Below, one piece after another: positions 23,232 through 42,468 of a stretch of 45,943 bases of DNA. Origin of the DNA: Burkholderiales bacterium (GTDB lineage Bacteria > Pseudomonadota > Gammaproteobacteria > Burkholderiales > Burkholderiaceae_C); contig JAIXKR010000075.1 in the NCBI GenBank assembly GCA_026932235.1, positions 1 through 45,943 on the forward strand, read 5' to 3'. Within the stretch, counting starts at the first letter, position 1; each line of letters begins with the position of its first letter. The position numbers were made by a program, and so were the translations under genes. The notes beneath the pieces were generated by a model that had not been told where the DNA came from, did no database searches, and saw only the letters and a program-made list of their open reading frames with translations.

Positions 23232-24359
23232 TCAACCCGCCTGCACGGCCTCGACGCGCCCGAGGCAGCGCCTGTGGCGCTCGTCGACGCGGCGCGCGAA
23301 CCACTCGGTGGTGAGCTTGCGCGTGAACTTCGGGCTCTGCAGGTCGATGCGCGGCAGCACTGCACGCGCCAGCGCGCGCCCGCCCTGCTTCTCGGCCTGC
23401 GCGAACACGCGCCGGTAGAGCTCGCTGCGTTCGAAATCGGGGCCGCTGCCCCGCTCCAGCTCGCGCCGCACCGCCGCGGGCGTCATCTCCAGCCGCGCCG
23501 CCACCGCCAGCGCCGCAGCTTCGGTCCGGCCGACGATGCCCGAGCCCGGCGGCGGCAGCAGGTCGCCATCCAGCGCCAGCGGCCGTCCGGCGAGCAGCGC
23601 CAGCGCCTGCTGGAAGGCGGCGTTGCGGCTCGCCCAGCGCCCGGCGTTGAAGTCGGCGAAGCGGTGGATCATGTGCTCGTAGGGCGCACGATAGGCGAGC
23701 AGGTGCGCGCTGCCGAAGTAGAGGCCGCCGCGGCGCGTGAAGACTTCGGCGCGCACCGATCCGCGCATCGGATAGGGATACGGCTGCGCGCGCACCTGTT
23801 CCTGCGCGAAGGCGACGCCGACCTGCATCGGCCCGCCGGTGCGAACGGGGTTGCGGTCGGCGAGAAAGCTGCGCCCGAGCGGCACGCTCTCGATGAACTC
23901 CTCGTAGAGATCGCTCAGCTCGCGTTCGGTCTGCACGCCCTCGAGCCGCTCGCCCCAGCTGCGGCCATCACTCGACGACAGCGCGAGCGCCGCACGCACG
24001 GCGAGTGCCGGCACGCCGGCGCGCTCCGCGCGGCGGTCGAGCTCCTTGCGCGCGATCGCCGCCAATCCCGGTACCGGCGGGTCGACCTGGTAGCCCGATT
24101 CCTGCTCCGTCACCGCGAGCACGGCGCACAGGTTGTCGGGCGTCAGCGCCAGATCGAGCGCGCCCAGCGCCGCGGTGAGATCGGCGGCCCAGCCGGCGCG
24201 GTCACGCAGGCGCTCGGGCAGCAAGGCGACGACGAGAGCGCGCGCCGGCGCGGGCTCGAGCCCCGCCTCGGCCGGCCCCACGCCGGGCGTACCGCAGCCC
24301 GAGAGACCCAAGAGGCCCAGCAGCACCGGCGCGGCGCGGAGCAAGACGGGCAGTCGCAT
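23232..24359 (-). CDS. DUF1615-family lipoprotein
   Basis: A 375-residue predicted lipoprotein: signal peptide RLPVLLRAAPVLLGLLGL with lipobox LSGC, so Cys22 or nearby would be acylated. It matches the DUF1615 family. Segments such as AVLAVTEQESGYQVDPPVPG and NPVRTGGPMQVGVAFAQEQV resemble the ES and GxMQV motifs of lytic transglycosylases, so a lysozyme-like fold is possible (inference). Other segments are GLYFGSAHLLAYRAPYEHMI, FADFNAGRWASRNAAFQ and SPKFTRKLTTEWFARRVDER. Start 24359 is set by the lipobox. It is divergent, by 141 bp, from the large multi-domain hydrolase gene. Confidence 0.85.
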   Translation of the reverse strand: MRLPVLLRAAPVLLGLLGLSGCGTPGVGPAEAGLEPAPARALVVALLPERLRDRAGWAADLTAALGALDLALTPDNLCAVLAVTEQESGYQVDPPVPGLAAIARKELDRRAERAGVPALAVRAALALSSSDGRSWGERLEGVQTERELSDLYEEFIESVPLGRSFLADRNPVRTGGPMQVGVAFAQEQVRAQPYPYPMRGSVRAEVFTRRGGLYFGSAHLLAYRAPYEHMIHRFADFNAGRWASRNAAFQQALALLAGRPLALDGDLLPPPGSGIVGRTEAAALAVAARLEMTPAAVRRELERGSGPDFERSELYRRVFAQAEKQGGRALARAVLPRIDLQSPKFTRKLTTEWFARRVDERHRRCLGRVEAVQAG

Positions 24360-24500
24360 GGTCGCATTGTCACTGCCGCGGCGGGGCAGCCGGCATCCCC
24401 TCGACGCACGAGACGCACGCAGCTTCACTGCGCCACACTCGGCCACGCCGCGCACGCAAGCCACAGGGGGCGTGACGTGACGCCAGACGAGGGGAAGGCC

Positions 24501-27419
24501 ATGGGCGAACTGCTGGTACGCGATCAACGGGGTCAAGCGATACGGGCGCTGCGGCGCGCGCTGGCGCGGCAGCTGGGTGCGGACGCGGCCGCGTTCGGCG
24601 ATCTGGCCGCGGGCGACACGCTCGACGCCGCCTGCGAAGCCGCCGCGCGACGCTGGCAGTCCGGCGTAGGGCTGGTGGCCGATGGCGTCGTCGGACCGCG
24701 CTGCCGGCACCTGCTCGAGCTGTGCGCGTACCCGCCGCCGGCCGTCGAGCTGAGCCTGGCCACGGTGCGCCCCCTCTTCCCGGCCACCAAGCCGGCGAAC
24801 ATCGAGCGCTACCTGCCCTACGTGGTGGCGGCGCTGCAGGCCTTGGGCCTGGTCGACCGGCCGATGATCCTCGCCGCGCTCGGAACCATCCGCGCCGAGA
24901 GCGAGGGCTTCGTGCCGATCTCCGAGATGCCCTCATCGCTGAACACCCGGCCCGGGCAGGCGCCGTTCAGCGCCTACGAAGACCGGCGCAATCTCGGCAA
25001 CACGCAGCCCGGCGACGGCGCGCGCTTCAAGGGCCGCGGCTTCGTGCAGCTCACCGGGCGCGCCAACTACAGCCGCTACGGCGAACGCCTGGGCGTCGAC
25101 CTCTTGCGCGATCCGGACCTCGCCAACGCGCCCGAGATCGCGGCGCTGCTGCTGGCGCAGTTCCTCGCCGACAAGGCCGAACCGATGCGCCGCGCGCTCG
25201 CCGCGGCCGACTACGCCGCGGCGCGGCGCCTCGTCAACGGCGGGCGCCACGGCCTGGAGCGCTTTCGCAGCGTGTTCGAGCTCGCGCTGCTCGCCTGGCC
25301 CGAGGACCGGCCGGCGGCGGCGACGGCACCCTCGACCGGTGCCGCACGCAAGCGGCGTGCTGCGGCTCGGGTCGGCGCCGCGGCAGCGCCTGCGGACACC
25401 GGCACGCGCACGAAAGCCGGCCGGCCGCTGACGGCGCGCAAGGACGCCATCGACCTGCGCGACCGCCCCTACGTGCCACCGGCCACCAGCCTCGAGGAGG
25501 TCTTCCCGAGCGACGAGGACGTGCGCCGCTGGCTGCCGCGCTACACGCGCGCCGGACTCGTTCTCGACCAGGGACAGGAAGGCGCGTGCACCGGCTTCGG
25601 CCTGGCCTGCGTCATCAACTACCTGCGCTGGCGCAAGGCCGGGCGGCCGACGCGGCTGGAGTCGGTGAGCGCGCGCATGCTGTACACCTTCGCGCGCCGC
25701 TACGACGAGTACAGCGGCGAGGACTACGAGGGCTCGAGCTGCCGCGGCGCGCTCAAGGGCTGGTTCCACCGCGGCGTCTGCCTCGAGTCCGACTGGCCGT
25801 ACGGGGACCCCGCGCTGCGTCCACGCTACGGCTACGCCGATCGCGCGACCGAGATCCCGCTGGGCGTGTACTACCGCGTCGACCTGCGCTCGATCACCGA
25901 CCTGCAGGCGGCGATCCAGGACGTCGGCGCCGTTTTCGCCTCGGCCTTCACCCACGAGGGCTGGACGCAGCTGCCCGCGCGCAGGCGGGCGCCGGGCGGA
26001 CACGCGCAACTGCCGCTGATTCCCTTCGACGGCCAGCGCTCGCAGGTCGACGGCCATGCCTTCGCGCTCGTCGGCTTCAACCGCCAGGGCTTCATCGTGC
26101 AGAACAGCTGGGGCAGGAACTGGGGTCAGGGCGGCTTTGCCGTGCTCGGCTATGCCGACTGGCTGGCCAATGGGATGGACGCCTGGGTTGCGGCGCTGGG
26201 CGTTCCCGGCGTCGTCGTCGGCCGCATGCTCGGCGGCGCGGCGCGCGCGCAGGCGCGCGCGGCCGGCGCCGACACGCGCTTGTGGTGGGACGAGGCGCAA
26301 GCCTACCGCCACAGCGTCGTGCTCGGCAACGACGGGCGCGTCGACCGCTATCTCGCCGAGGACGAGGTCAGCCGCACGCTGCTGCACCAGGTCGCCGACC
26401 TGCCCGACCAGTGGTTCCGCAGCCAGGGCGGCGGCGGCCCCAAGCGACTCGTCATCTACGCGCACGGCGGCCTCAACAGCGAGGCCGCGGGGATCGCACG
26501 TGCGCGGGCGATGGGCCGGCACTTCGCTGCCAACGGCTGCTGGCCGCTGTTCCTGGTGTGGAAGACCGGCCTGCTGGAGACCATCGGTCACCAGATCGAG
26601 GACGCCTGGCGCAAGCAAGCGGTCGCGCCGGCGGCCGGCGTCGGCGAATGGCTGAGCGAGCGCACCGATCGGCTGATCGAGCACAGGATCGCGCGCCCGC
26701 TGGCGCGCCCGGTATGGAGCGAGATGAAGGAGAACGCCGCCTTCGGCTTCGACTCCGGCCGCGGCGGCGACCTGCTCATCACCGCGCTGCACAAGCTCGC
26801 GGACACCTGGGGCGACGCGCTCGAGGTGCACCTCGTGGGCCACTCCGCGGGCGCGATCCTCCTCGGACGGCTGCTTTCGGCGCTGGCGGCGCGCGGCAGC
26901 GTCGGGCTGCCGAAGTCGGTGCATCTGTACGCCCCGGCGTGCACGCTGGCCTTTGCCAACCGCCACTACGCGGCGCAGCCCGAGGTCATGAAACGGCTCC
27001 ACCTGGACCTGCTCTCGGATCGCGTCGAGCGCGCCGACGCGGTCGCTGCGGTCTACCGCAAGTCGCTGCTCTACCTCGTCTCCAACGCACTCGAGATCGA
27101 CCTGCGCACACCGCTGCTGGGAATGGCGCGCATCTTCGATCCCGACGACAGCGGCTGGGACGGAACCTCGGCCACCGGCGACACGCTGCGCGCCTGGCGC
27201 GCCGCCGCCGCGAGCGCCGGACTCGGCGTCGGCGCACGCAGCAACGGCCGCGTGCAGATCCTCGACGCCGACAAGGTGCTCACCTGCCGCCAGCCCGAGC
27301 AGCGCATTCGCGCCGCGCACGGCAGCTTCGACAACGACATCGCCGTGTTCACGCGCACGCTGGAGCGCATCACCGGCGGCGCGCTGGCCGCACCGGTGGA
27401 CGATCTTCGCGGATACTGA
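24501..27419 (+). CDS. Multi-domain hydrolase: PG-binding, GH19-like, papain-like and alpha/beta-hydrolase domains
   Basis: A 972-residue protein with four modules. Residues about 5-75 are a peptidoglycan-binding-1-like domain (RDQRGQAIRALRRALARQLG, SGVGLVADGVVGPRC). About 95-265 match GH19/phage-lysin folds: LAALGTIRAESEGFVPISEM with Glu133 as likely acid, and FKGRGFVQLTGRANYSRYG. A basic, Ala-rich linker follows. About 310-565 are a papain-like C1 peptidase: LDQGQEGACTGFGLA with Cys363, GHAFALVGF with His519 and QNSWGRNWGQGGFAV with Asn535. About 645-850 are a serine hydrolase: VIYAHGGLNSEAAG, LFLVWKTGLLETIG and VHLVGHSAGAILLG with Ser782. No signal peptide or membrane helix is seen. The C1 plus HGGL-hydrolase pair is a recurring combination; the N-terminal wall-lytic half is unusual. 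The start has a GAGGGGAAGG ribosome site. It may share a transcript with the TPS genes 79 bp downstream. Confidence 0.88.
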   Translation: MGELLVRDQRGQAIRALRRALARQLGADAAAFGDLAAGDTLDAACEAAARRWQSGVGLVADGVVGPRCRHLLELCAYPPPAVELSLATVRPLFPATKPANIERYLPYVVAALQALGLVDRPMILAALGTIRAESEGFVPISEMPSSLNTRPGQAPFSAYEDRRNLGNTQPGDGARFKGRGFVQLTGRANYSRYGERLGVDLLRDPDLANAPEIAALLLAQFLADKAEPMRRALAAADYAAARRLVNGGRHGLERFRSVFELALLAWPEDRPAAATAPSTGAARKRRAAARVGAAAAPADTGTRTKAGRPLTARKDAIDLRDRPYVPPATSLEEVFPSDEDVRRWLPRYTRAGLVLDQGQEGACTGFGLACVINYLRWRKAGRPTRLESVSARMLYTFARRYDEYSGEDYEGSSCRGALKGWFHRGVCLESDWPYGDPALRPRYGYADRATEIPLGVYYRVDLRSITDLQAAIQDVGAVFASAFTHEGWTQLPARRRAPGGHAQLPLIPFDGQRSQVDGHAFALVGFNRQGFIVQNSWGRNWGQGGFAVLGYADWLANGMDAWVAALGVPGVVVGRMLGGAARAQARAAGADTRLWWDEAQAYRHSVVLGNDGRVDRYLAEDEVSRTLLHQVADLPDQWFRSQGGGGPKRLVIYAHGGLNSEAAGIARARAMGRHFAANGCWPLFLVWKTGLLETIGHQIEDAWRKQAVAPAAGVGEWLSERTDRLIEHRIARPLARPVWSEMKENAAFGFDSGRGGDLLITALHKLADTWGDALEVHLVGHSAGAILLGRLLSALAARGSVGLPKSVHLYAPACTLAFANRHYAAQPEVMKRLHLDLLSDRVERADAVAAVYRKSLLYLVSNALEIDLRTPLLGMARIFDPDDSGWDGTSATGDTLRAWRAAAASAGLGVGARSNGRVQILDADKVLTCRQPEQRIRAAHGSFDNDIAVFTRTLERITGGALAAPVDDLRGY

Positions 27420-27498
27420 GCCGCCCCGGGTGCGGGGTGGACTCGGCCGCTGCACTGTGGCGAGAATGTCCCCCGTCTTCCGGAGAGCCGAGAACCCG

Positions 27499-29169
27499 AT
27501 GCCTTGCGGTGCCTGCGTTGCGCGCGTGCTGATGGTCGCTGCCCTCGCGCTCGCGATCGCAGGCACCGTATCCGCCCCCTCCACCGCCGCGGAAGCCGGA
27601 CCCGAACGCGCGCAGGCGGGCGCGGCAGGGGGCGCGGACGGCGCGGCTTTCACGCTGCCGCCGGCCTCGGCCAGCCTGCCGGCAGCGACGCCGGCCGCGC
27701 CCTTCGTCCTGCGCGCATTTCGCTTCCACGGCGCGAGCGTGATCGACGACGCGGCGCTGCAGCGGCTGGCGGCCCCGTGGCTGGGGAGGCCGCTGCGCGC
27801 GCTGGACCTCGAGGACCTGCGCCAGACGCTGACGCGCGCCTACGTCGAGCGCGGCTACGTCAACTCCGGCGCCGTGCTCGACGACGATGCGCTGCAGGAC
27901 GGCGTGCTCACGCTGCGCCTCGTCGAAGGGCGCATCACCGGCGTGCGACAGACGGGGCTGCAAGGCCTCTCCGAAACCTATCTCGCGTCGCGCCTGGTGC
28001 GCCGCGACGAGGTGCTCGACGTGCCGCGGCTGCAGGAGCGCTTCGAACTGCTGCTCGCCGACCCGCTGTTCGCGCGCATCCAGGCGCGTCTGCTTCCGGG
28101 CGCGGCGCCGGGCCAGGCGCTGCTGGACCTGGAAGTCGAACGCGCACGCCCCTGGCAGCTCGCGCTCTTCGCCAACAACCACCTCGCACCGGCGGTGGGC
28201 GCGGCGCAGGCCGGCGTCGAGGGCGGCGCGCACAACCTGCTCGGCTGGGGCGATGCGCTCGGCGCCATCGTCGGCGCCAGCGAGGGCAGCGTCAACGGCG
28301 ACGCGAGCTGGCAGATCCCGCTGGGCGGAACGCGCACGCTGCTGGCGCTGCGCCTGGCGCGCGGCAACTCGGCGCTGATCGAGGAGCCGGTGGCGGCGCT
28401 GGACATCGACAGCCGCGTCGACACCCGCGAGATCACGCTCTCGCACCCCTTCGTCGATGCGCCGCGCAGGCGCTGGCTGCTGGGCCTCACGCACGCGCGG
28501 CGCAGCAGCCGCACCACGCTGGCCGGCGAGCCCTTCTCCTTCGTCAGCGGCGAGGACAGCGGCACCACGCGCATCGAATCCTGGCGCCTGTTCCAGGAAC
28601 TCACGCTGCGTCGGGCCCGCCACGTCTTCGCCCTGCGCGCGAGCCTCATCCTGGGGCGCAACAACCTCGCGGCCGACTCCGAGCTGCCCGGCGTGGCGCC
28701 GCGCCGCTACCGGCTGTGGCAGTTGCAGGGGCAGGCGGTGCTGGCGCAGGACGAGGGCGGGCGCCGCATCGTGCTGCGCGGCCAGGCACAGCATGCCGCC
28801 GACCGCCTGGTGCCGCTCGAGCAGATGGCGCTGGGCGGGCGCTACACCGTGCGCGGCTACCGCGAGAACCAGTTCGTGCGCGACAACGGCTTCGCCCTCG
28901 GCGCCGAATGGCACTGGCCGCTGTGGCGCGACGAGGCGCGGCGCGCGAGCCTCACGCTGATCCCCTTCGCCGAGGGGGGGCGCGCCTGGAACCGTGACGA
29001 ACCGCGCGCGCGACTGGCTTCGCTCGGCCTGGGCCTGGCCTGGACCTTCGCCGAGCTCGAGGGTGAGCTGAACTTCGCCCGGCGTCTCGAACGCCGGCCC
29101 ATCGACACCCATGGAAACCTGCAGGACCATGGCATCCACCTCATGCTGCGCTGGCGGCCTTCGTTCTGA
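27499..29169 (+). CDS. TpsB outer-membrane transporter (ShlB/FhaC/HecB family)
   Basis: A 556-residue precursor. After a signal peptide (VARVLMVAALALAIAGTVSA) comes a Pro/Ala linker, a POTRA module (LRAFRFHGASVIDDAALQRL, DLRQTLTRAYVERGYVNSGA, LTLRLVEGRITGVRQTG) and a second POTRA (RLQERFELLLADPLFARIQA). A 16-strand-type barrel follows, with the family motif GGRYTVRGYRENQFVRDNG (the VRGY loop that folds into the pore) and terminal RWRPSF ending in Phe. It exports the TpsA protein encoded two genes downstream. ATG 27499 with upstream GGAGAG is preferred; 27466 would add eleven residues. The 3' end overlaps the CHAT gene by 41 nt. Confidence 0.93.
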   Translation: MPCGACVARVLMVAALALAIAGTVSAPSTAAEAGPERAQAGAAGGADGAAFTLPPASASLPAATPAAPFVLRAFRFHGASVIDDAALQRLAAPWLGRPLRALDLEDLRQTLTRAYVERGYVNSGAVLDDDALQDGVLTLRLVEGRITGVRQTGLQGLSETYLASRLVRRDEVLDVPRLQERFELLLADPLFARIQARLLPGAAPGQALLDLEVERARPWQLALFANNHLAPAVGAAQAGVEGGAHNLLGWGDALGAIVGASEGSVNGDASWQIPLGGTRTLLALRLARGNSALIEEPVAALDIDSRVDTREITLSHPFVDAPRRRWLLGLTHARRSSRTTLAGEPFSFVSGEDSGTTRIESWRLFQELTLRRARHVFALRASLILGRNNLAADSELPGVAPRRYRLWQLQGQAVLAQDEGGRRIVLRGQAQHAADRLVPLEQMALGGRYTVRGYRENQFVRDNGFALGAEWHWPLWRDEARRASLTLIPFAEGGRAWNRDEPRARLASLGLGLAWTFAELEGELNFARRLERRPIDTHGNLQDHGIHLMLRWRPSF

Positions 29170-31414
29170 GGCACGCGCGCCCGGCCTGCGGCGGCTCGCC
29201 CTGGCCGCCGCCGCGGTTGCCGCCATGGCCGTCGTCCTTGCGCTGGCGGCCGGCAGCGCGCAGGCCGCCGGCGCGAGCTGTGACGCGGACCAGGGCCCCT
29301 TGCGCCTGCGCGTGCAGGCGATGCAGGCGGCGCACGCGCGCCTCACCGACGGCCTGGAGCGCGCGCGCAGCGCGGGCCGGCTCGGCGCGGCCTGGCTTGC
29401 GCTCGGGCGCGACGACGAGGCCGAACCGCTGCTGCGCGAGGCTGCCGCGGCGCCGCTGCCCGCGCCCGAGCGTGCCGCCGCGGCGATGGACCTCGGCAAC
29501 CTGCTCTACACACGCGGTGCGGGCGCACAGGCGGCGACGCACTGGGCCGCCGCTGCCGCCCTCGTCGCGGACGACGCCGAACTCGGCTTGCGCGCCCGGC
29601 TCAACGCGCTGCGCCTGCAGCCCGAGGCCGAGCGCCTGCTCGCGTTACAGGAGACCTTGCCGCGCGTCGCGGCGCTGCCCGCGCCGCCGGCTCGCGCGCG
29701 CCTGGCGCTGAACCTTGCGGCGCAGGCGCAGGAGTTGGGCGATGCGCGGGCCAGCGACGCCGCAGCGGCGCTGGCCTGGCGCGCGCTCGAGCTCGGGCGC
29801 ACGCAGGCGCTGGCCGCAGGCGACCCGCGCCTGGCCGCCGAGGCGCTCGAGGGTCTTGCCGCACTCTACGAAGCGCAGCAGCGCCCGGAGCAGGCGCTGG
29901 CGCTGGTCGAGCAAGGCATCGCGCAGGCGCGGCGCGTCGACGCGCGCGAGCGCCTGATGACGCTCGAAGGCCGCGCCGGGCGTCTGAGCGCGGCCAGCGG
30001 TGACGCCGCGCGCGCGCTGGCGGCGTACCGGCGCGCGGTCGAGCACGCGCAGGCGGTGCGCAGCGACATCCCGGTGCGCTATCGCGACGGGCGCTCGTCC
30101 TTCCGCGAGACGCTGGCGCCGCTCTACCTCGGCCTCACCGACCAGTTGCTGCGCCGCGCCGACGCGATGCCGGCGACCGAACAGCAGCCGCTGCTGCGGC
30201 AGGCGCGCGACACGGTCGAGCTGATCAAGCAGACCGAGCTCGCCGACTACCTGCGCGACCGCTGCAGCGTCGAGGCCGCGGCGCGCCGCGTCGCGGCGCC
30301 GCCGCCGGCCGGCACCGCGATCTACTACCCGATCCTGCTGCCCGACCGCCTCGAACTGCTGCTCGAGACGCAAGCCGGGCTCGAGCGCCGCCGCGTGCCC
30401 ATCGGCGACGAGCGCCTGCGAGACGAGGTGCTGGCCTTCGTCGCCGCGCTGCGCGACGGCGAGCCGCTCATGGCGCGCGCGCAGGCGCTCTACCGCGTCC
30501 TCGTCGCGCCGCTGGAGCCGCTGCTGTCCCAGGCGCGCATCGACACCCTGGTCGTCGTCCCCGACGGCGTGCTGCGCCTGCTGCCGCTGGCCGCGCTGCA
30601 CGACGGACGCGGCTGGCTGCTGCAGCGCCTGGCGGTGGCCACGGTGCCGGCGCTCAGCCTGACGGCGCCGCCGCGCAGCGAGCGCCGCCCGCTGCGCGCG
30701 CTGCTCGCCGGCCTCAGCGACCCGGGGCCGGTGGTCGACAAGCTGCCACCGGACGTCGTCGACGCCGTGCTCGAACCGCAGGACCCGACGCGCCGACCGG
30801 GCGCCGCCGCCGCGCGCAGCGCGCCGCTGGACGCGCGCGAGCGCAGCGCGCTGCGCGAAGCGCTGGCGCTGCCCGGCGTGAAGGCGGAGATCGAGTCGCT
30901 GTCGGCCATGCTGCCGGGCAAGGTGCTGCTGGACGAGGCCTTCACGCTGGACGCGCTGCAGCAGCAGTTGCGCGGCGAGGCCTATCCGGTGGTGCACATC
31001 GCCTCGCACGGGCTGTTCGGGCACGACATCGATTCGACCTTCATCATGACCTACGACGAGCTGCTCACGCTCGACGGCCTGCAGGCGCTGCTGCGCAGCA
31101 GCCGGCCGCACGGCCAGGGGATCGAACTGCTCACGCTCTCGGCCTGCCAGACTGCCGAGGGCGACGACCGCGCGCCGCTGGGCATGAGCGGCAGCGCGCT
31201 CAAGGCGCGCGCGCGCAGCGCGCTGGGCACGCTGTGGCCGGTGGCCGACGAGTCCGCGCGCCTGGTGATGGACGGCTTCTACCAGCGTCTGGCGCGCGGC
31301 GAGCTGGCGCGCGTGCAGGCCTTGCGCCAGGCGCAGCTCGCGCTGCTGCAGCAGCGCGAGCGCAGCCACCCCTTCCACTGGGCACCATTCGTCCTGATCG
31401 GAGACTGGCAATGA
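29129..31414 (+). CDS. TPR and CHAT-domain (caspase-like) protein
   Basis: A 761-residue protein. A hydrophobic segment near the N-terminus (LALAAAAVAAMAVVLALAAG, then SAQAAG) is a signal peptide or anchor, so the rest should be periplasmic or exported. Residues about 60-330 are Ala/Leu-rich helical repeats of TPR type (GRLGAAWLALGRDDEAEPLL, LYEAQQRPEQALALVEQGIA). The C-terminal half is a CHAT domain with IYYPILLPDRLELLLE, DTLVVVPDGVLRLLPLAALH and the catalytic pair: His627 in VVHIASHGLFG and Cys673 in LTLSACQTAEG, both intact. GTLWPVADESARLVM and HPFHWAPFVLIGDW close the domain. It overlaps tpsB by 41 nt and tpsA by 4 nt (ATGA). A start at 29111 is also possible. It is probably a peptidase acting on the secreted partner or on envelope targets. 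Confidence 0.9.
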   Translation: MASTSCCAGGLRSEARAPGLRRLALAAAAVAAMAVVLALAAGSAQAAGASCDADQGPLRLRVQAMQAAHARLTDGLERARSAGRLGAAWLALGRDDEAEPLLREAAAAPLPAPERAAAAMDLGNLLYTRGAGAQAATHWAAAAALVADDAELGLRARLNALRLQPEAERLLALQETLPRVAALPAPPARARLALNLAAQAQELGDARASDAAAALAWRALELGRTQALAAGDPRLAAEALEGLAALYEAQQRPEQALALVEQGIAQARRVDARERLMTLEGRAGRLSAASGDAARALAAYRRAVEHAQAVRSDIPVRYRDGRSSFRETLAPLYLGLTDQLLRRADAMPATEQQPLLRQARDTVELIKQTELADYLRDRCSVEAAARRVAAPPPAGTAIYYPILLPDRLELLLETQAGLERRRVPIGDERLRDEVLAFVAALRDGEPLMARAQALYRVLVAPLEPLLSQARIDTLVVVPDGVLRLLPLAALHDGRGWLLQRLAVATVPALSLTAPPRSERRPLRALLAGLSDPGPVVDKLPPDVVDAVLEPQDPTRRPGAAAARSAPLDARERSALREALALPGVKAEIESLSAMLPGKVLLDEAFTLDALQQQLRGEAYPVVHIASHGLFGHDIDSTFIMTYDELLTLDGLQALLRSSRPHGQGIELLTLSACQTAEGDDRAPLGMSGSALKARARSALGTLWPVADESARLVMDGFYQRLARGELARVQALRQAQLALLQQRERSHPFHWAPFVLIGDWQ

Positions 31415-34400
31415 GGACTCCGCCTGTGCGGCCGACGCGAATCGCGCGCACCGCCCTGGCCGCGCTCACGGGCCCGGCCCTGCTGATCCTGTTGCTGGCG
31501 GCACCCGGGCCGACGCGGGCCGCGGCGACGACCGACGGCAGCGCCGGCGCGGTGCAGACGCTCTCGGGCCGCTTCACGGTGCCGCAGTCGCTGGGCACCG
31601 TGCGCGGCGCCAACCTGCTGCACAGCTTCGCGCGCTTCGGCATCGCCAGGGGCGAGGCCGCGACCTTCACGACGCAGGACGCGGGGCTGCGCCACGTCAT
31701 CGCGCGCGTCACCGGCGGGCAGGCCAGCGTGCTCGAAGGCCCGCTGCAGCTGCAGGCCGCGGGCGGCGCCAGCCCCGACTTCTGGCTCCTCAACCCGAGC
31801 GGCGTGCTCGTCGGCGCGGGCGCGAGCTTCGACGTTCCGGCCGGGCTGCACCTGGGGGCGGCGAGCACGATCCGCTTCGCCGACGGCAGCCGCCTCGACG
31901 CCGACGCGAGCAGCGCCAGCAGCCTGAGCGTGGCCGCGCCCGAGGCCTTCGGCTTCCTCGCCGCGCCGGCGGCGGGGCTGCTCTCGGTGCGCGACGCCGC
32001 GCTGCAGCCAGGCCTGGGCGCGGCGCTCACGCTGGCCGGCGGCACGATGCAGGTCGAGCGCGCGCAGATCGCCACGCTCGCCGCGCCGCTGCACCTGCAC
32101 ACCACCGGGGCGCTCGTCCTCGGGGCGGGCGCCGAACTGTCCGCCAGCGGCGTCGGCCCCGGCGCGCTGTTGCACCTCGAAGCGGGACAGATGGCGGCCG
32201 CCCAGGGGGCGATGGCGTCGGCCTGGAACTACGGCAGCGCCACCGGCTCGGGGCTGCAGGTCGACGTCGCCGCGGCCCTGGTGCTGGCCGAGGGGGCCAA
32301 CCTGGCGAGCTACGCGGTGGCCGACGGCATGGCCGGGCCGCTGCAGGTGAACGCAGGTTCGTTGATGCTGTCGGGCCGCGGCGCGGCGGGGCCGACCTCG
32401 CTTCTCTCGATGGGACAGGCCGGACCGCCGGGAGCCGTGACGCTGCGCGTCGCCGAGACGATCGAGATGTTCGACGGCGCGAGCATCGGCTCGTCCAACC
32501 GCAGCGGCGCCGTGCCGGGCGTGGTCTCCGTGCAGGCGCGGCGCATCGCGCTCGACGGCCAGGGCGTGGCGACGACGATCAACAGCCTTTCCACCGGTGA
32601 CGGCCCGGCCGCCGCCGTCGAGGTGCGGGCCGGCGAACAGCTCGCGCTGCGCGATGGCGGACAGGTCTTCGGCGCCACGCTCGGCGGCGTCGACGCCGGC
32701 AGCGTCCACATCGCCAGCCCGCGCATCGAGATGCAGGGCGGCAGCGGCGACGTCACCGGCATCTACGCCAATGCGCTCGGCGCCGGACGCGGCGGCGCGA
32801 TCACGGTCGACGCCGATGCGCTCTCGCTGCGGGACGGCGCGCGCATCTCGACTTCGACCAACCACGCACTCGGCTCGGCCGGGAGCATCGCCGTCAACGC
32901 AAGGCAGCTGCGCATCGAGGGCCGCGGCCAGTCCACCAGCATCGACTCCTACGCCTACGGAACCGGCGGCGACGCCGGCCGCATCGAGCTGCAGGTGCAG
33001 GACGAACTCGCACTGCAGAGCGGCGCCACGGTCGCCGCCGGCACCTTCGGCAGCGGCAACCCCGGCCTCGTGAAGGTGCGCGCAGGCACGCTGCTCATCG
33101 ACGGCCGCGGCGGCGGCCAGGGCATCACCGCCATCGCCGGGGATGCCCTCTTCAGCGGCGCAGGCGCCGAAGTCGACGTGCAGGCCGCGCGCATCGACAT
33201 CCTGGAAGGCGGCGCCATCGCCACCTCGACGGCATCGGCGCGCGACGGCCAGCCGCTGCGCGTCGCCGCCGACACGCTGCGCATCGACGGCGGTGCGAAC
33301 CCAGGCACCGCCACCGGCATCTTCGCCGACACCCAGGGCAGCGGCAACGCCGGCAGCCTGCGGATCGAGGTCGGCGAGCTGCAGGTGCTGAACGAAGGCA
33401 TGGTGTCGACGAGCACGATTGCCGCGGGCCAGGGCGGCAGCCTCGAGGTGCGCGCCGCGCGCGTGCTGCTCTCGGGCGCGGGCGGCCTGGTCTCGGTGGC
33501 GGCCGACCAGGGCGACGCCGGGCGCATCAGCATCCAGTCCAGCGGGAGCGTCGAGCTGCGCCAGGGCGGCTACATCGTCGCCAACAGCGGCGGCGCCGGC
33601 GCCTCGGGCGACATCGAGATCCGCACCGCCCGCTTCACGGCCGAGGGCAGCGACCCCGCCGGCGGCCAGCGCAGCCGCATCGCCGGCCGCGCGCTGCCCG
33701 ATTCCTCCGGCCGCGCCGGGCGCATCACGCTCGTCGCCGACGGCGAGATCGTGCTCGGCACCGACGCGCTCCTGAGCATCGCCAACGACGCGCACACGCC
33801 CGCGGCCGCACAGGGCGACTCGCGCATCCGCGTGCAGGGTGGGCGCATCGTGCTCGATGGCGCGGAGATCACCGCCGCGGCCGGCGCCGCCGCCGATGCC
33901 GGCGCGATCGAGCTGGCGAGCACGGGCGCCATCGGCCTCTCCGGCGCCGGCCTGCACACCTCGGCGGCCAGCGGCCGCGGCGGCCCGATCACGATCGACG
34001 CCGGCGGCGCGCTGGTGCTGCGCAACAGCCTGGTGACGACCTCGGTGCTCGCGCGCGACGGCGGCGACGGCGGCGACATCCGCATCACGACGCCGGCGCT
34101 GGCGCTGGCCTCGGGCTTCGTGCAGGCCAACACCGCGGCCGCACGCGCCAGCGGCGGCACGGTGACGATCGACGCCGCGCGGCTCGTGCCCGACGGCAAC
34201 CACGTCTTCGTCGGCGGCCAGCGCATCGCCGACTTCCGCCCCGACGCGCCGGGCCACAACGTCATCCAGGCTGCCGCGCCGGACGGTGTCGCGGGGCGCC
34301 TGGACGTGACACAGCCCGAGCTCAACCTCTCGGGCAGTCTGGCCGCGCTGATCGCGCAGCCGGTCGACTTCGGGCTCCTGCGGCCCGACATCTGCGACGC

Positions 34401-34479
34401 CGGCACCGACAGCAGCTTCACCATCCTCGGCCGCGGCGCCCTGCCCGCACCGGCGAGCGCGCCGCTGCGCAGCCGTTGA
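31411..34479 (+). CDS. TpsA exoprotein (filamentous-haemagglutinin type, TPS domain)
   Basis: A 1022-residue secreted protein: signal peptide with a basic start and LALTGPALLILLLAAP-type core, then a TPS/haemagglutination-activity domain (about 40-270): GRFTVPQSLGTVRGANLLHS, FARFGIARGEAATFTT, FWLLNPSGVLVGAGASFDVP (NPSG in place of the usual NPNG). The rest is Gly/Ala/Asp-rich repetitive beta-helix sequence (GGAITVDADALSLRDGARIS; SSGSVELRQGGYIVANSGGA). It lacks the long repeats or toxin tail of contact-dependent inhibition effectors. The C-terminus RPDICDAGTDSSFTILGRGA with LPAP resembles a conserved tail (SSF..GRGxLP) on many non-toxin TpsA proteins. It starts within the CHAT stop (ATGA) and is last in the operon. 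Confidence 0.92.
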   Translation: MRTPPVRPTRIARTALAALTGPALLILLLAAPGPTRAAATTDGSAGAVQTLSGRFTVPQSLGTVRGANLLHSFARFGIARGEAATFTTQDAGLRHVIARVTGGQASVLEGPLQLQAAGGASPDFWLLNPSGVLVGAGASFDVPAGLHLGAASTIRFADGSRLDADASSASSLSVAAPEAFGFLAAPAAGLLSVRDAALQPGLGAALTLAGGTMQVERAQIATLAAPLHLHTTGALVLGAGAELSASGVGPGALLHLEAGQMAAAQGAMASAWNYGSATGSGLQVDVAAALVLAEGANLASYAVADGMAGPLQVNAGSLMLSGRGAAGPTSLLSMGQAGPPGAVTLRVAETIEMFDGASIGSSNRSGAVPGVVSVQARRIALDGQGVATTINSLSTGDGPAAAVEVRAGEQLALRDGGQVFGATLGGVDAGSVHIASPRIEMQGGSGDVTGIYANALGAGRGGAITVDADALSLRDGARISTSTNHALGSAGSIAVNARQLRIEGRGQSTSIDSYAYGTGGDAGRIELQVQDELALQSGATVAAGTFGSGNPGLVKVRAGTLLIDGRGGGQGITAIAGDALFSGAGAEVDVQAARIDILEGGAIATSTASARDGQPLRVAADTLRIDGGANPGTATGIFADTQGSGNAGSLRIEVGELQVLNEGMVSTSTIAAGQGGSLEVRAARVLLSGAGGLVSVAADQGDAGRISIQSSGSVELRQGGYIVANSGGAGASGDIEIRTARFTAEGSDPAGGQRSRIAGRALPDSSGRAGRITLVADGEIVLGTDALLSIANDAHTPAAAQGDSRIRVQGGRIVLDGAEITAAAGAAADAGAIELASTGAIGLSGAGLHTSAASGRGGPITIDAGGALVLRNSLVTTSVLARDGGDGGDIRITTPALALASGFVQANTAAARASGGTVTIDAARLVPDGNHVFVGGQRIADFRPDAPGHNVIQAAAPDGVAGRLDVTQPELNLSGSLAALIAQPVDFGLLRPDICDAGTDSSFTILGRGALPAPASAPLRSR

Positions 34480-34506: not shown

Positions 34507-35403
34507 TCAAGCCGGAGCCGACCGCAGCAATTCCTGCACGATCGCCGCGCCGCGCTCGAGCAGCGGTCCGCGCGGTCGCTGCGCCGAGGTCGCGAGCCAG
34601 AGCGTCGCCACCAGCGGCGGCTTCAACGGCCGCAGCGTGAACGCTTCTGGCTGGCCGCTGCCGCGGATCGCGTTCTCGGTCAGCAGCGCATGCGCGCCCC
34701 CCTGTTGCACGAGGTCGAGGATCGCCGGCACGCTGTCGATCTCGAGCGCGACGCGGGCGCGTCGGCCTTCGGTGGCCAGCGCCGCCTCGAGCAGCATGCG
34801 CATCGCGTGCGGACGGCTCGGGATCACGAGCGACTGCTCGGCCAGCGTCGCCAGCGCAACCGCCGTACCCCGGCGGCGCTCCCCCGGTGCGCGCGCCGAG
34901 ACCAGGAAGAGCGGCTCGTCCCGCAGCGGCTGCAGCTCGATCGCGGGCGCGGGCGTGACGTTGTAGGCCAGGGCGGCATCGACGCGACCGATCACCAGCC
35001 ATTCGAGCGCGTAGGCCGACAAGCCTTCGACGATCGACAGGCTCGCGTGCGGCAACTGCGCCCTGAAGGCCTGCACCAAGGGGCCGGTGAGCGTGCGGCT
35101 GACGCTGGGCGGCAGCGCGATCGCGAGGCGCCCGCTGGCGGCGCCGCGCTGGTCCTCGAGGTCGTCGCGCGCGCGCTGCACCTGCTGCAGGATGCCGCGC
35201 GCGTGCGCCAGCAGCCGCTTACCGCCCTCGGTGGGCGTGACGCCGCGGCCGTTGCGCTGCAGCAGCGTCTGGCGCAGCTCGACCTCGAGCGCACGCACCT
35301 GGCGCGAGAGCGCGGGCTGCGCGATCTGCAGGAAGGCCGAGGCGCGCGTGAAGCTGCCCATCTCGGCGACGTGCACGAAGTATTCGAGCTGCTTCAGATC
35401 CAT
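34507..35403 (-). CDS. LysR-family regulator (likely of the lig operon)
   Basis: A 298-residue LysR protein of normal length. The N-terminal helix-turn-helix is MDLKQLEYFVHVAEMGSFTR, ASAFLQIAQPALSRQVRALE; the effector domain begins about residue 90 (GRLAIALPPSVSRTLTGPLV) and includes VDAALAYNVTPAPAIELQPL and AILDLVQQGGAHALLTENAI. It resembles the Nac/CbbR-like subgroup used for many aromatic pathways. It is divergent from ligJ with an 87-bp gap holding a strong dyad at 35426-35455, so it most likely activates the protocatechuate operon in response to a pathway compound. Confidence 0.93.
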   Translation of the reverse strand: MDLKQLEYFVHVAEMGSFTRASAFLQIAQPALSRQVRALEVELRQTLLQRNGRGVTPTEGGKRLLAHARGILQQVQRARDDLEDQRGAASGRLAIALPPSVSRTLTGPLVQAFRAQLPHASLSIVEGLSAYALEWLVIGRVDAALAYNVTPAPAIELQPLRDEPLFLVSARAPGERRRGTAVALATLAEQSLVIPSRPHAMRMLLEAALATEGRRARVALEIDSVPAILDLVQQGGAHALLTENAIRGSGQPEAFTLRPLKPPLVATLWLATSAQRPRGPLLERGAAIVQELLRSAPA

Positions 35404-35425
35404 GCCGGGATGCTATAGCTGCTAG

Positions 35426-35455
35426 TCCCGTTATCGCATTGATGCGAAGTCGGGA
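35426..35455. promoter_or_regulatory. Dyad-symmetric candidate operator between LysR and ligJ
   Basis: TCCCG-N3-TCGCAT-TG-ATGCGA-N3-CGGGA: both outer 5-bp and inner 6-bp arms are exact inverted repeats around one centre. It sits 35 bp from ligJ and 22 bp from the LysR gene. This is a good candidate for the LysR dimer recognition site. Confidence 0.6.
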
Positions 35456-35490
35456 TCGGCCAACAATGCCGGCCCAAGGAGAGCGCGCCC

Positions 35491-36519
35491 ATGATCATCG
35501 ACATCCACGGCCACTACACGACGGCGCCCGCGGCACTGGGCCACTGGCGCGACGCGCAGATCGCCGGCATCGGCGACCCGGGCAAGCGCCCGCGCGTCGC
35601 GGACCTGAAGATCAGCGACGACGACATCCGCGAGACGATCGAGAACAACCAGCTCAAGCTGATGCGCGCGCGCGGCTCGGACCTCACCGTCTTCAGCCCG
35701 CGCGCCAGCTTCATGGCGCACCACATCGGCGACTTCGAGGTCAGCAGCACCTGGGCGGCGATCTGCAACGAGCTCTGCTTCCGCGTCAGCCGGCTCTTTC
35801 CGGATCACTTCGTCCCCGCGGCCATGCTGCCGCAGAGCCCGGGCGTGGACCCCAGGACCTGCATCCCGGAGCTGGTGAAGTGCGTCGAGCAGTACGGCAA
35901 CGTCGCCGTCAACCTCAACCCCGACCCCTCCGGCGGCCACTGGAAGGAGCCGCCGCTCACCGACCGCCACTGGTACCCGATCTACGAGAAGCTGGTCGAG
36001 TACGAGATCCCGGCCATGATCCACGTCAGCACCAGCTGCAACGCCTGCTTTCACACCACCGGCGCGCACTACATCAACGCCGACACCACGGCCTTCATGC
36101 AGCTCATCCAGGGCGACCTGTTCAAGGACTTCCCGACGCTGAAGTTCATCATCCCGCACGGCGGCGGCGCCGCGCCCTACCACTGGGGGCGCTACCGCGG
36201 CCTGGCGCAGGAGCTGAAGAAGCCGCTGCTGCAGGAGCATCTGCTGAACAACGTCTTCTTCGACACCTGCGTCTACCACCAGCCGGGCATCGACCTGCTG
36301 ACCAAGGTGGTGCCGGTCGAGAACATCCTCTTCGCCAGCGAGATGATCGGCGCCGTGCGCGGCGTCGACCCCGAGACCGGCTTCAACTACGACGACACCA
36401 AGCGCTACATCGAGGCCAGCACCCAGCTCACGCCGGCGCAGAAGCACGCCATCTACGAAGGCAACGCGCGACGCGTCTACCCGCGCCTGGACGCCGCGCT
36501 GAAGAAGAAGGGGAAGTGA
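35491..36519 (+). CDS. ligJ: 4-oxalomesaconate hydratase
   Basis: A 342-residue amidohydrolase-superfamily enzyme matching Sphingobium LigJ and Comamonas PmdE, including [20 protein letters not shown] at the N-terminus (HGH metal ligands), GRLS-equivalent [70 protein letters not shown] and [17 protein letters not shown]. It hydrates the isomer of 4-oxalomesaconate to 4-carboxy-4-hydroxy-2-oxoadipate. It is the first gene of the operon with ribosome site AAGGAGAG, and ligK follows after 1 bp. Confidence 0.94.
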
Positions 36520-36520
36520 G

Positions 36521-37204
36521 ATGTTCGAACTCGGAGTCGTCTACCGCAACATCGAGCGCACCGACGCCGCCACCGCCGACGCACTGGCGCGCCTGGGCAG
36601 CGCCACCGTGCACGAGGCCATGGGCCGGGTCGGCCTGATGAAGCCCTACATGCGCCCGATCTACGCCGGCGCGCAGGTCTCGGGCACCGCCGTCACCGTG
36701 CTGCTGCATCCGGGCGACAACTGGATGATGCACGTCGTCGCCGAGCAGATCCGCCCCGGCGACATCGTCGTCGCCGCCGTCACCGCCGAGTGCAGCGACG
36801 GCTACTTCGGCGACCTGCTGGCCACCAGCTTCCAGGCCCGCGGTGCGCGCGCCCTGGTCATCGACGCCGGCGTGCGCGACGTGAAGACGCTGCACGAGAT
36901 GGGCTTCCCGGTCTGGAGCAAGGCCATCAGCGCCAAGGGCACGATCAAGGCCACGCTCGGCTCGGTCAACATCCCCGTGGTCTGTGCCGGCGCCTGGGTG
37001 ACGCCCGGCGATGTCATCGTCGCCGACGACGACGGCGTCGTCTGCGTGCCGCGCGCGCTGGCCGGCAAGACGCTCGAGGCCGCCACGCGACGCGAGGCGC
37101 TGGAAGGCGAGAAGCGCGCCAAGCTCGCCAGCGGCGTGCTCGGCCTGGACATGTACCAGATGCGCGAACCGCTGGCCAAGGCCGGCCTGCGCTACATCGA
37201 CTGA
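36521..37204 (+). CDS. ligK: 4-carboxy-4-hydroxy-2-oxoadipate aldolase / oxaloacetate decarboxylase
   Basis: A 227-residue class II aldolase of the RraA-like fold, as LigK/PmdF/GalC. Motifs are [60 protein letters not shown] with [40 protein letters not shown] (R-D of the active site) and [16 protein letters not shown]. It cleaves the product of LigJ to pyruvate and oxaloacetate in the cytoplasm. The start is 1 nt after the ligJ stop, with AAGGGGAAG upstream. Confidence 0.95.
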
Positions 37205-37228
37205 AGACGGCAGCGCCCGCGACCGAGC

Positions 37229-37584
37229 ATGCGCATCACGCTCATCGGCTACGGCGAGGTCGGCCGCATCCTGGCCGAGGATCTGCGCGCGCAGGATCAT
37301 GCGCTGTGCGCCTTCGACCTCGCGCTGCAGGGCGAACAGGGCGAGCCCATGCTCGACGCCGAGCTGGTGATCTCCGCCGGTGACCGCGAATCAGGCCGTG
37401 CCGGTGGCGCAGGCCTGCGCGCCGGGCCTGGGTCGCCGACCTCGCCGACGCCGGCGCCTTCGGCGTGCGCGGCAGCCCGGGCTTTGCGCGCAGCAGCGAC
37501 TGGCGCACCGAGGCCGATCGCCTGCTGGCGGCCGACGGCCGGCCCGCAGCGAACCTGGATGCGACGACGAGAAAGGACGGCTGA
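37229..37584 (+). pseudogene. NAD(P)-dependent oxidoreductase, internally deleted and frameshifted
   Basis: Three pieces of one Rossmann oxidoreductase (6-phosphogluconate-dehydrogenase-like/DUF1932 type) lie in three frames. First is ITLIGYGEVGRILAEDLRAQ to AELVISA (frame of 37229). From the GTG at 37380 it continues as VTANQAVPVAQACAPGL. From 37426 the C-terminal part reads WVADLADAGAFGVRGSPGFA, then RSSDWRTEADRLLAADG. Full relatives are about 300 residues; here only about 115 remain, so the substrate-binding middle is gone. An intact homologue in other lig/pmd clusters is expected from memory. The operon continues 3 bp later with ligI, so the deletion did not disturb downstream genes. Confidence 0.8.
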
Positions 37585-37587
37585 GCG

Positions 37588-38505
37588 ATGAGCTTCGAGA
37601 AGACCCCCGGCTGGCTGGACTGGTACGCCGGCCCGAGCACGCCGCGCTTTCGCCTGCCGCCGGGCAGCGTGGACGCGCACTGCCACGTCTTCGGCCCCGG
37701 CGCCGAGTTTCCATTCGCCCCCGAGCGCAAGTACACGCCTTGCGACGCGAGCAAGGCGCAGCTCTTCGCGCTGCGCGACCACCTGGGCTTTGCGCGCAAC
37801 GTCATCGTGCAGGCCACCTGCCACGGCGCCGACAACCGGGCCCTGGTCGACGCCTGCCGCGCCAGCCAGGGCCGCGCGCGCGGCGTGGCCACGGTCCGGC
37901 GCAGCGTCAGCGACGCCGAGCTGCACAGCCTGCACGAGGCCGGCGTGCGCGGCGTGCGCTTCAACTTCGTCAAGCGCCTGGTCGACTTCACGCCCAAGGA
38001 CGAACTGCTCGAGATCGCCGCGCGCATCAAGGCGCTGGGCTGGCACGTCGTCATCTACTTCGAGGCCCAGGACCTGCCCGAGCTGTGGGACTTCTTCACC
38101 GCGCTGCCGACCACCGTCGTCGTCGACCACATGGGCCGCCCCGACGTGCGCCAGCCCCTGGACGGCCCCGAGTTCGCGCTCTTCCTGAAGTTCATGCGCG
38201 AGCACGAGAACGTGTGGAGCAAGGTCAGCTGCCCCGAGCGCCTGAGCCACAGCGGCCCACCGGCCTTGCACGGCGAGCAGGCCGCCTACCGCGACGTCGT
38301 GCCCTTCGCGCGCAAGGTCGTCGAATCCTTCCCCGAGCGCGTGCTCTGGGGCACCGACTGGCCGCATCCCAACCTGAAGGACCACATGCCCGACGACGGC
38401 CTGCTGGTCGACTTCATCCCCCACATCGCTCCCACCCCCGAACTGCAGCGCAAGCTGCTGGTCGACAATCCGATGCGTCTCTACTGGCCCGACGAAGTTC
38501 GATGA
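37588..38505 (+). CDS. ligI: 2-pyrone-4,6-dicarboxylate hydrolase
   Basis: A 305-residue amidohydrolase matching LigI/PmdD, which opens the lactone of 2-pyrone-4,6-dicarboxylate to 4-oxalomesaconate. Visible motifs are SVDAHCHVFGPGAEFPFAPE (active-site His pair), RKYTPCDASKAQLFALRDHL, VQATCHGADNRALVDACR, GVRGVRFNFVKRLVDFTPKD, VVVDHMGRPDV and RVLWGTDWPHPNLKDHMPDD (catalytic Asp). The start ATGAGCTTCGAG lies 3 nt after the pseudogene stop. Its stop overlaps the ATG of the tannase-like gene. Confidence 0.95.
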   Translation: MSFEKTPGWLDWYAGPSTPRFRLPPGSVDAHCHVFGPGAEFPFAPERKYTPCDASKAQLFALRDHLGFARNVIVQATCHGADNRALVDACRASQGRARGVATVRRSVSDAELHSLHEAGVRGVRFNFVKRLVDFTPKDELLEIAARIKALGWHVVIYFEAQDLPELWDFFTALPTTVVVDHMGRPDVRQPLDGPEFALFLKFMREHENVWSKVSCPERLSHSGPPALHGEQAAYRDVVPFARKVVESFPERVLWGTDWPHPNLKDHMPDDGLLVDFIPHIAPTPELQRKLLVDNPMRLYWPDEVR

Positions 38506-40199: not shown

Positions 40200-40212
40200 A
40201 CAGGAGGCCAGC

Positions 40213-42468
<2,256 letters not shown>

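Follow-up and report, generated by a model that had tools for sequence, protein, structure and literature searches.

A predicted CHAT protease encoded inside a two-partner secretion operon may act on a conserved TpsA tail, a pairing shared from Rubrivivax-type bacteria to cyanobacteria

Introduction

Several described two-partner secretion (TPS) systems hold or process their exoprotein, TpsA, at its C-terminal end. In HMW1 a C-terminal disulfide loop locks the end of TpsA in the pore of the transporter TpsB, and the same is expected for HxuA, as outlined in a review of TPS systems (PMC5422565); for CdrA, a cysteine hook is presumed to hold the exoprotein, which the periplasmic protease LapG releases (PMC11898600). 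According to the TPS review, genes of maturation proteases appear to lie outside TPS operons (PMC5422565), and for CHAT proteases a report on Craspase describes substrates as commonly encoded near the protease (PMC9729208). In this study, we analysed a 45,943-nt stretch of DNA (hereafter the window), the entire contig JAIXKR010000075.1 of a 3.86-Mb, 81% complete draft genome (GCA_026932235.1) from a Burkholderiales bacterium, whose named relatives are mostly Rubrivivax or Burkholderiales metagenome-assembled genomes; within it, the gene of a predicted TPR-CHAT cysteine protease lies between tpsB and tpsA of a TPS locus.

A partnership between the CHAT protein and TpsA is well supported by comparison of related sequences, which also suggests that the protease acts on a conserved TpsA tail and that the pair is shared from Rubrivivax-type bacteria to cyanobacteria. 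With somewhat better than even confidence, we read the locus as a TPS system to which the operon adds a third partner, a TPR-CHAT protease that would act in the periplasm and process the retained C-terminus of TpsA.

Results

The features of the locus are as follows, all on the plus strand.
27499..29169: tpsB, outer-membrane TPS transporter, 556 aa (Pfam; 9/9 orthologous loci)
in TpsB: POTRA_2 (3.9e-16), residues 69-144, and ShlB (1.5e-18), residues 206-513 (Pfam)
29129..31414: gene of the predicted TPR-CHAT cysteine protease, 761 aa (Pfam CHAT 6.7e-56)
29129..29269: its predicted Sec-type signal peptide region, residues 1-47 (hydrophobic stretch in the window and orthologues)
29300..30067: its TPR-type helical array, about residues 58-313 (AlphaFold2; weak TPR_12)
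30476..31405: its CHAT protease domain (Pfam; His-Cys pair in alignment)
31007-31009 and 31145-31147: codons of His627 and Cys673
31411..34479: tpsA, exoprotein, 1022 aa (Pfam TPS 1.5e-18; adhes_NPXG 3.5e-12)
31525..32076: TPS secretion domain of TpsA, residues 39-222 (Pfam PF05860)
34378..34446: core of the TpsA C-terminal module, residues 990-1012 (cyanobacteria-only tail profile, E=1e-7)
34393-34395 and 34429-34446: lone Cys995 and GRGALP in the tpsA tail

TpsB has the ShlB-type POTRA and barrel of a type Vb transporter (Pfam), TpsA combines a TPS domain with an NPXG domain (46.1 bits against a cut-off of 29.1) as TPS exoproteins do, and the genome contig search found one CHAT match and one TPS match in the window genome, adjoining each other. 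The first-pass annotation, made from the window alone, had placed an upstream hydrolase gene 79 nt before tpsB and had described frame overlaps of 41 nt (tpsB/CHAT) and 4 nt (CHAT/tpsA, ATGA); these distances and the gene coordinates were all confirmed by open reading frames and Pfam. Scanning genome contigs with the CHAT protein yielded nine orthologous loci, the ninth on a contig that stops within CHAT. Upstream of CHAT, tpsB is found in 9/9 of them, and tpsA follows in the 8/8 with a readable continuation; with the window included, the tpsB/CHAT overlap is 41 or 38 nt in 10/10 loci and the CHAT/tpsA overlap is ATGA in 9/9. Conserved order together with conserved overlaps indicates an arrangement beyond chance. 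This genome survey, which the annotation had proposed as a check, bears out its view that CHAT is built into the TPS operon, as does the single CHAT clade described below.

The CHAT protein combines, as its family does, a CHAT domain with a His-Cys pair and a TPR array. His627 and Cys673, called an intact pair at first sight, are present and invariant in 10/10 aligned CHATs, the window included, and the pair is intact in 29/29 TPS-linked CHAT rows. The TPR-like repeats proposed earlier correspond to a helical array at residues ~58-313, modelled by AlphaFold2 with a predicted local distance difference test score (pLDDT) mostly >90; the Pfam match to TPR_12 (4e-4) is under its cut-off, and a sequence search of solved structures with the CHAT protein matched the TPR part alone. 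The supposed export segment is a Sec-type hydrophobic stretch, found at the start of every TPS-linked CHAT scanned but L094, whose frame shows no such stretch in its first 150 residues; as a guess from the sequence, the signal peptide might be cleaved between SAQA and A.

In the model of TpsA, a beta-helix covers about residues 190-970, and the best Foldseek matches of the protein are TPS exoproteins, weak ones (EtpA, E 0.02; a haemopexin-binding protein complex, 0.29), with no match under 0.001. Among orthologues the tail is better conserved than the beta-helix: over nine orthologous TpsAs the mean majority-residue fraction is 0.78 in the tail (974-1022) and 0.81 in 990-1012, compared with 0.62-0.71 in three helix stretches and 0.81 in the TPS domain. 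The window tail reads C-DAGTD-SSFTIL-GRGALP, then ten residues to the stop, and includes Cys995, the sole Cys of the protein. The same module, a Cys, then SS[F/L], then GxG[G/A][L/M]P, is found in cyanobacterial TpsA tails adjoining CHAT genes. The Cys is present in 37/37 distinct module tails and the full Cys...GxG[GA][LM]P in 24/37, 21 of those 24 with Arg or Lys. A second Cys lies downstream of the motif, <=20 residues from the C-terminus, in 24/37 distinct tails; the 13 without it include L104 (cut by a contig end), the second copy in L073 (a fragment) and L071 (a fusion). Some control TpsAs also carry a Cys near the C-terminus, so that the hook is not special to the module group; the inner motif is. 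As a separate observation, a Brasilonema plasmid (L073 15648-17573) has a 642-aa frame with a second module copy and no TPS domain beside the full TpsA, which looks like part of a broken tpsA.

The distribution of this module was followed with tail profiles, the first of them (A1) scanned across whole genomes, in samples of 61 related genomes and 398 Pseudomonadota genomes that both include the window genome. Profile A1 was built from 12 tails (7 Rubrivivax-type and 5 cyanobacterial), every one CHAT-linked, so that genome counts made with it are partly circular; for this reason a separate profile was made from the five cyanobacterial tails. In the 61 genomes, A1 gave 7 matches, every match a TPS place; 9/83 TPS places had a CHAT match within 10 kb, and all 7 module places were among these 9 (p about 9e-9, ignoring relatedness). 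In the 398 Pseudomonadota it gave 17 matches in 10 genomes, and CHAT was present in 10/10 module genomes versus 112/398 overall, or 53/141 genomes with TPS; CHAT-TPS adjacency in this sample is known only among the matches listed. The cyanobacteria-only profile, run on 5470 open frames, recovered 28/28 proteobacterial module rows, 26 of which are distinct, each with an E value no higher than 1e-5, and the best other frame had E 0.03. It found 9/9 tails of the window (1e-7) and the eight orthologues obtained through CHAT, which together with L093 and L094, obtained as CHAT-TPS neighbours, form the independent part of the test, the other 17 rows having originally been found with A1. Controls came from 40 regions at TPS places without CHAT nearby, 26 with complete tails and 14 running off the piece, and none of the 26 complete tails scored better than E 8; at one control, L122 (G022:C17), a weak CHAT turned up 4.6 kb away.

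The linkage takes several forms. The window-type order tpsB-CHAT-tpsA also occurs in L093, L094, L099, L102, L105 and L106; L100 and L101 have tpsA-tpsB-CHAT and L161 CHAT-tpsA-tpsB, L108 has tpsB-CHAT divergent from tpsA, the genes of L109 are on mixed strands, and in L095 CHAT is 3.4 kb away from tpsA-tpsB, on the opposite strand. In Acaryochloris marina, one annotated 1756-aa protein comprises a TPS domain, a beta-helix-type region, the module (sequence SQFIVTGRGGLP), TPR and CHAT. Among cyanobacterial plasmids, for which 13 of 90 matching records were covered (hits 1-10 and 13-15; L072/L176 are near duplicates), a module TpsA is near or fused to CHAT in 9/13 regions; L175, L178 and L179 show no frame of the TPS type, and the L180 piece covers TpsA only in part. 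Genes for DUF928 and CHASE2 proteins are recurrent neighbours in these regions, a CHASE2 sensor gene in 4/13. The fusion gene itself lies on an Acaryochloris marina plasmid (L071 6152-11422); upstream of it is a gene for a DUF928 protein, and downstream are two genes for toxin-activating lysine-acyltransferases. Elsewhere, L105 and L106 (G082:C51) are two tpsB-CHAT-tpsA units in opposite orientation near both ends of a 92-kb contig, with identical frame lengths and CHAT rows; the pair could be a genuine inverted repeat or could stem from the assembly.

A midpoint-rooted CHAT tree of 61 rows (7 of 68 were dropped for short domains) places all 28 rows labelled TPS-linked in one 32-row group with support 100/99, which spans Rubrivivax-type, other proteobacterial and cyanobacterial members. 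For 25 of these 28, the piece with CHAT also contains a module TpsA, and for L034, L153 and L154 it contains TpsB only; L038/L093 and L105/L106 are duplicates of the same sequence. The group also holds L161 (TPS-linked), L157 (a 6-kb contig), L013 and L021; the TpsA tail of L161 ends in a degenerate module, CRAARASGGASQLSIAAIGPYGL, which was read by eye and was matched by neither tail profile. Five tested cyanobacterial CHATs beside filamentous-haemagglutinin-type genes fall in the same group. The label unlinked (L002-L029) denotes no TPS match within 10 kb, with the exceptions of L012, whose TPS match is 6.5 kb away on the opposite strand, and L015, a long-branch row, probably misread, that is the CHAT of L095 (8 kb) under a second label. 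TpsB divides along the same line: a TpsB profile built mostly from Rubrivivax-type sequences gave about 1e-89 to 1e-108 for complete module-linked proteobacterial TpsBs outside the genus (L161 1e-58) and 2e-40 or weaker for unlinked TpsBs of the same genus; L150 has a module-type TpsB (3e-102) on a piece without CHAT.

Further CHAT-TPS pairings may exist: in L158 and L112, CHAT genes that fall outside the 32-row group stand beside TPS genes with a module-less TpsA. Of the 36 other genomes of the window's genus that were searched, at least 19 carry another CHAT match, which lies within an open frame of 1837-2307 aa.

Around the operon, the nearest gene upstream is the following.
24501..27419, plus strand: 972-aa hydrolase, papain C1 above its cut-off and GH19 just under; a neighbour, judged to be outside the unit
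The annotation had described a four-domain hydrolase; Pfam matched two domains, papain C1 over its cut-off and a GH19-like stretch just under, and nothing else at E 0.01. Divergent from this gene, a DUF1615 protein gene (E 2e-130) occupies 23232-24461 on the minus strand. On the far side, at 34507-41521, a minus-strand LysR-type regulator gene diverges from genes whose products are two amidohydrolases, an RraA-like aldolase and a ring-cleavage dioxygenase of the LigB type; this region looks like an aromatic degradation cluster, of the 4,5-cleavage type, with no relation to the TPS unit. A scan for promoters and terminators gave 0 promoter-like sites and 1 terminator-like site, below shuffled counts, and was uninformative.

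Discussion

Gene order, frame overlaps, one CHAT clade, the co-occurring tail module and the fusion, all of them sequence evidence, make TpsA the likely partner of the CHAT protein, and the C-terminal module of TpsA is the likely site of its action. The first-pass annotation had the CHAT protein process either TpsA or a target met at the cell surface; the choice of TpsA stands, the periplasm replaces the cell surface as the likelier place, and cleavage of the tail is what we infer from the pairing. Given the descriptions of HMW1, HxuA and CdrA, the module occupies the region at which the exoproteins of known TPS systems are fixed and cleaved.

In the proposed mechanism, TpsA would thread through TpsB N-terminus first, and its tail would thus be left at the pore on the periplasmic side. 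In most of the lineages seen, the Cys pair that spans the tail could form a hook holding TpsA in TpsB. The CHAT protein, with its Sec-type signal, would meet the tail in the periplasm at the TpsB pore, where its TPR part might bind the module and its caspase-like part might cut in or next to it. Such a cut could decide the fate of TpsA, namely release, retention or maturation, analogous to LapG acting on CdrA but by way of an unrelated operon-encoded protease. In the window lineage, where the second Cys is absent and the tail is short, cleavage may mature or release TpsA in a hook-free manner.

A number of observations weigh against this reading. The C-terminal Cys pair or disulfide loop of CdrA/LapG and HMW1/HxuA is missing from the window TpsA with its lone Cys995, and each of the ten Rubrivivax-type tails, the window's included, has one Cys. 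The AlphaFold2 model of the CHAT protein, from a shallow 10-row alignment, has a mean pLDDT of 58 and is low across the CHAT domain, for which reason a structural reading of the active site was abandoned. The TpsA tail (974-1022) and the TPS domain (5-188) are both modelled at pLDDT <50; since the two are equally low, the value is no proof of disorder in the tail, and its use as a sign of disorder was withdrawn. A Sec-type start is not peculiar to the operon proteins, being present in most unlinked CHATs as well. GxG[GA][LM]P deviates in 13/37 tails (L094, L095, L097, L100, L104, L107-L111, L161, L177 and L181), and Arg/Lys is absent in L035 and L036 (GGGALP) and L105 (GPGGLP); strict Arg-specific cleavage at GRGALP was therefore rejected as a general rule. 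The reverse profile, from Rubrivivax-type tails, recovered 17/24 other module rows at E 1e-3 and missed L071, L100, L105, L106, L107, L110 and L111, the best non-module frame being at 2.2. Eight fetched module pieces are without CHAT (L096, L097, L098, L103, L104, L107, L110 and L111); of these, L097, L103, L104 and L111 are short contigs or contig ends, the contig of L096 (G216:C66) has a CHAT end at its edge, and the genomes of all eight have CHAT, which in two of these genomes is paired with tpsB on a different contig (L153, L154). Conversely, TpsA lacks the module in the CHAT-TPS neighbourhoods L158, L112, G009:C85 and G022:C17 (weak CHAT), so the idea of a module in every TPS-adjacent CHAT locus was rejected, and for L013 and L021, inside the CHAT group, the DNA that was fetched contains no TPS gene.

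The CHAT protein could also be tied to TpsA without cutting it: the tail would dock on the TPR part and serve as sensor or activator, and an exoprotein that is engaged, jammed or absent would prompt the protease to cut a different protein of the envelope. We regard this as unlikely, yet deserving of attention: the would-be cleavage-site letters of the module vary and the Cys persists, the four cyanobacterial regions with CHASE2 have a sensor gene added, and the Craspase CHAT is described as switched on by a bound partner (PMC9729208). The hydrolase, LysR and amidohydrolase genes speak against it in that they do not accompany CHAT in the way TpsB and TpsA do in the nine Rubrivivax-type loci, where only window genes were searched for. 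A caspase-fold protease able to cut a tail and join the protein to an acceptor is known in PorU, and the motif, near the C-terminus and past the modelled beta-helix, is suitably placed for a CHAT protein that works as a sorting transpeptidase, one that cuts the TpsA tail and links the exoprotein to an acceptor on the surface, the part played by PorU in type IX secretion. Against this, no acceptor or ligation partner was identified, the PorU-type sortase domain Peptidase_C25 is absent from the CHAT protein (Pfam gives CHAT and TPR_12 alone at E 0.01), and transfer and hydrolysis look the same on present evidence; we judge transpeptidation improbable. Slightly less remote, though speculative, is the wider proposal that a widespread type Vb branch has CHAT as its sorting enzyme, which cuts at a signal of Cys, SS[F/L] and GxGGLP so that the exoprotein is passed to a surface acceptor or freed from its cysteine hook, a caspase-fold counterpart of sortase/PorU common to proteobacteria and cyanobacteria.

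Shared inheritance alone, in which one TPS lineage happened to gain CHAT and then spread together with it, the tail being a lineage end cap, would account for the fact that TpsB, CHAT and the TpsA tail each look like one lineage; for that reason the co-occurrence counts are not independent events. Nevertheless, the linkage persists through several gene arrangements and one fusion, the overlaps are conserved in Rubrivivax-type loci and the catalytic pair is intact in every TPS-linked row, and we consider inheritance alone a decidedly poor explanation. Least credible of all is the four-gene unit of the first-pass annotation, in which the 972-aa hydrolase would be a functioning member: the hydrolase gene is on the same strand, immediately upstream across the short gap in the window, and also stands upstream in L031 and L032, but it is absent from 6/8 testable orthologous loci, and its distance to tpsB differs (79 nt in the window, about 900 and about 120 nt in the other two). 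With the gene upstream in 2/8 loci and at differing distances, its fourth membership was rejected and it is left outside the unit. Our preferred reading remains that of the periplasmic protease processing the retained TpsA tail.

If that reading holds, CHAT proteases would gain an envelope role, and some TPS systems would possess their own enzyme for release or sorting, with a substrate signal that can be read from sequence. Surface proteins under such control could then be predicted in cyanobacteria and proteobacteria. In the open-licence literature, we found no description of a CHAT-TPS pair (the spelling 'haemagglutinin' was outside the search) and no occurrence of the motif string GRGGLP. 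Public annotation of cyanobacteria shows CHAT genes next to haemagglutinin-type genes, each annotated singly; these cyanobacterial loci share the CHAT group and, in the nine regions mentioned, the tail module with the window, and they differ in often having DUF928/CHASE2 nearby, in a longer tail after the motif and in other gene orders.

LapG belongs to the Peptidase_C93 family, for which the window genome (81% complete assembly) has no match; the family is absent in 6/7 module genomes, but since it is absent in 49/61 genomes overall too, its absence from module genomes is given no weight. The CdrA/CdrB-LapG system of Pseudomonas aeruginosa resembles the proposed mechanism in a TPS exoprotein that a C-terminal cysteine hook is presumed to hold at its transporter and in a periplasmic protease that releases it by cutting near the C-terminus (PMC5422565, PMC11898600). 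LapG differs in being controlled by cyclic di-GMP and in not being a CHAT protein, whereas here a TPR-CHAT protein is encoded inside the operon. The TpsA C-terminus of HMW1/HxuA has a disulfide loop and is expected to be periplasmic (PMC5422565), which the 24/37 module tails with a second Cys near the end may match; the SS[F/L]...GxGGLP motif within the span, the CHAT partner and the single Cys of the window tail set the present systems apart. Release of FhaB in Bordetella is controlled by processing of its C-terminus in the periplasm (PMC8263021), but there the enzymes DegP, CtpA and SphB1 are non-CHAT proteases. The TPR-CHAT protein of Craspase, Csx29, shares the TPR array, the CHAT His-Cys pair and a substrate gene nearby (PMC9729208), and is an RNA-activated CRISPR protease, unlike the predicted exported protein of a secretion operon seen here. 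A protease gene tied into the operon by overlapping frames runs contrary to what the TPS review says about the position of such genes (PMC5422565). We file the unit as a new variant of two-partner secretion, set apart from the LapG and PorU systems.

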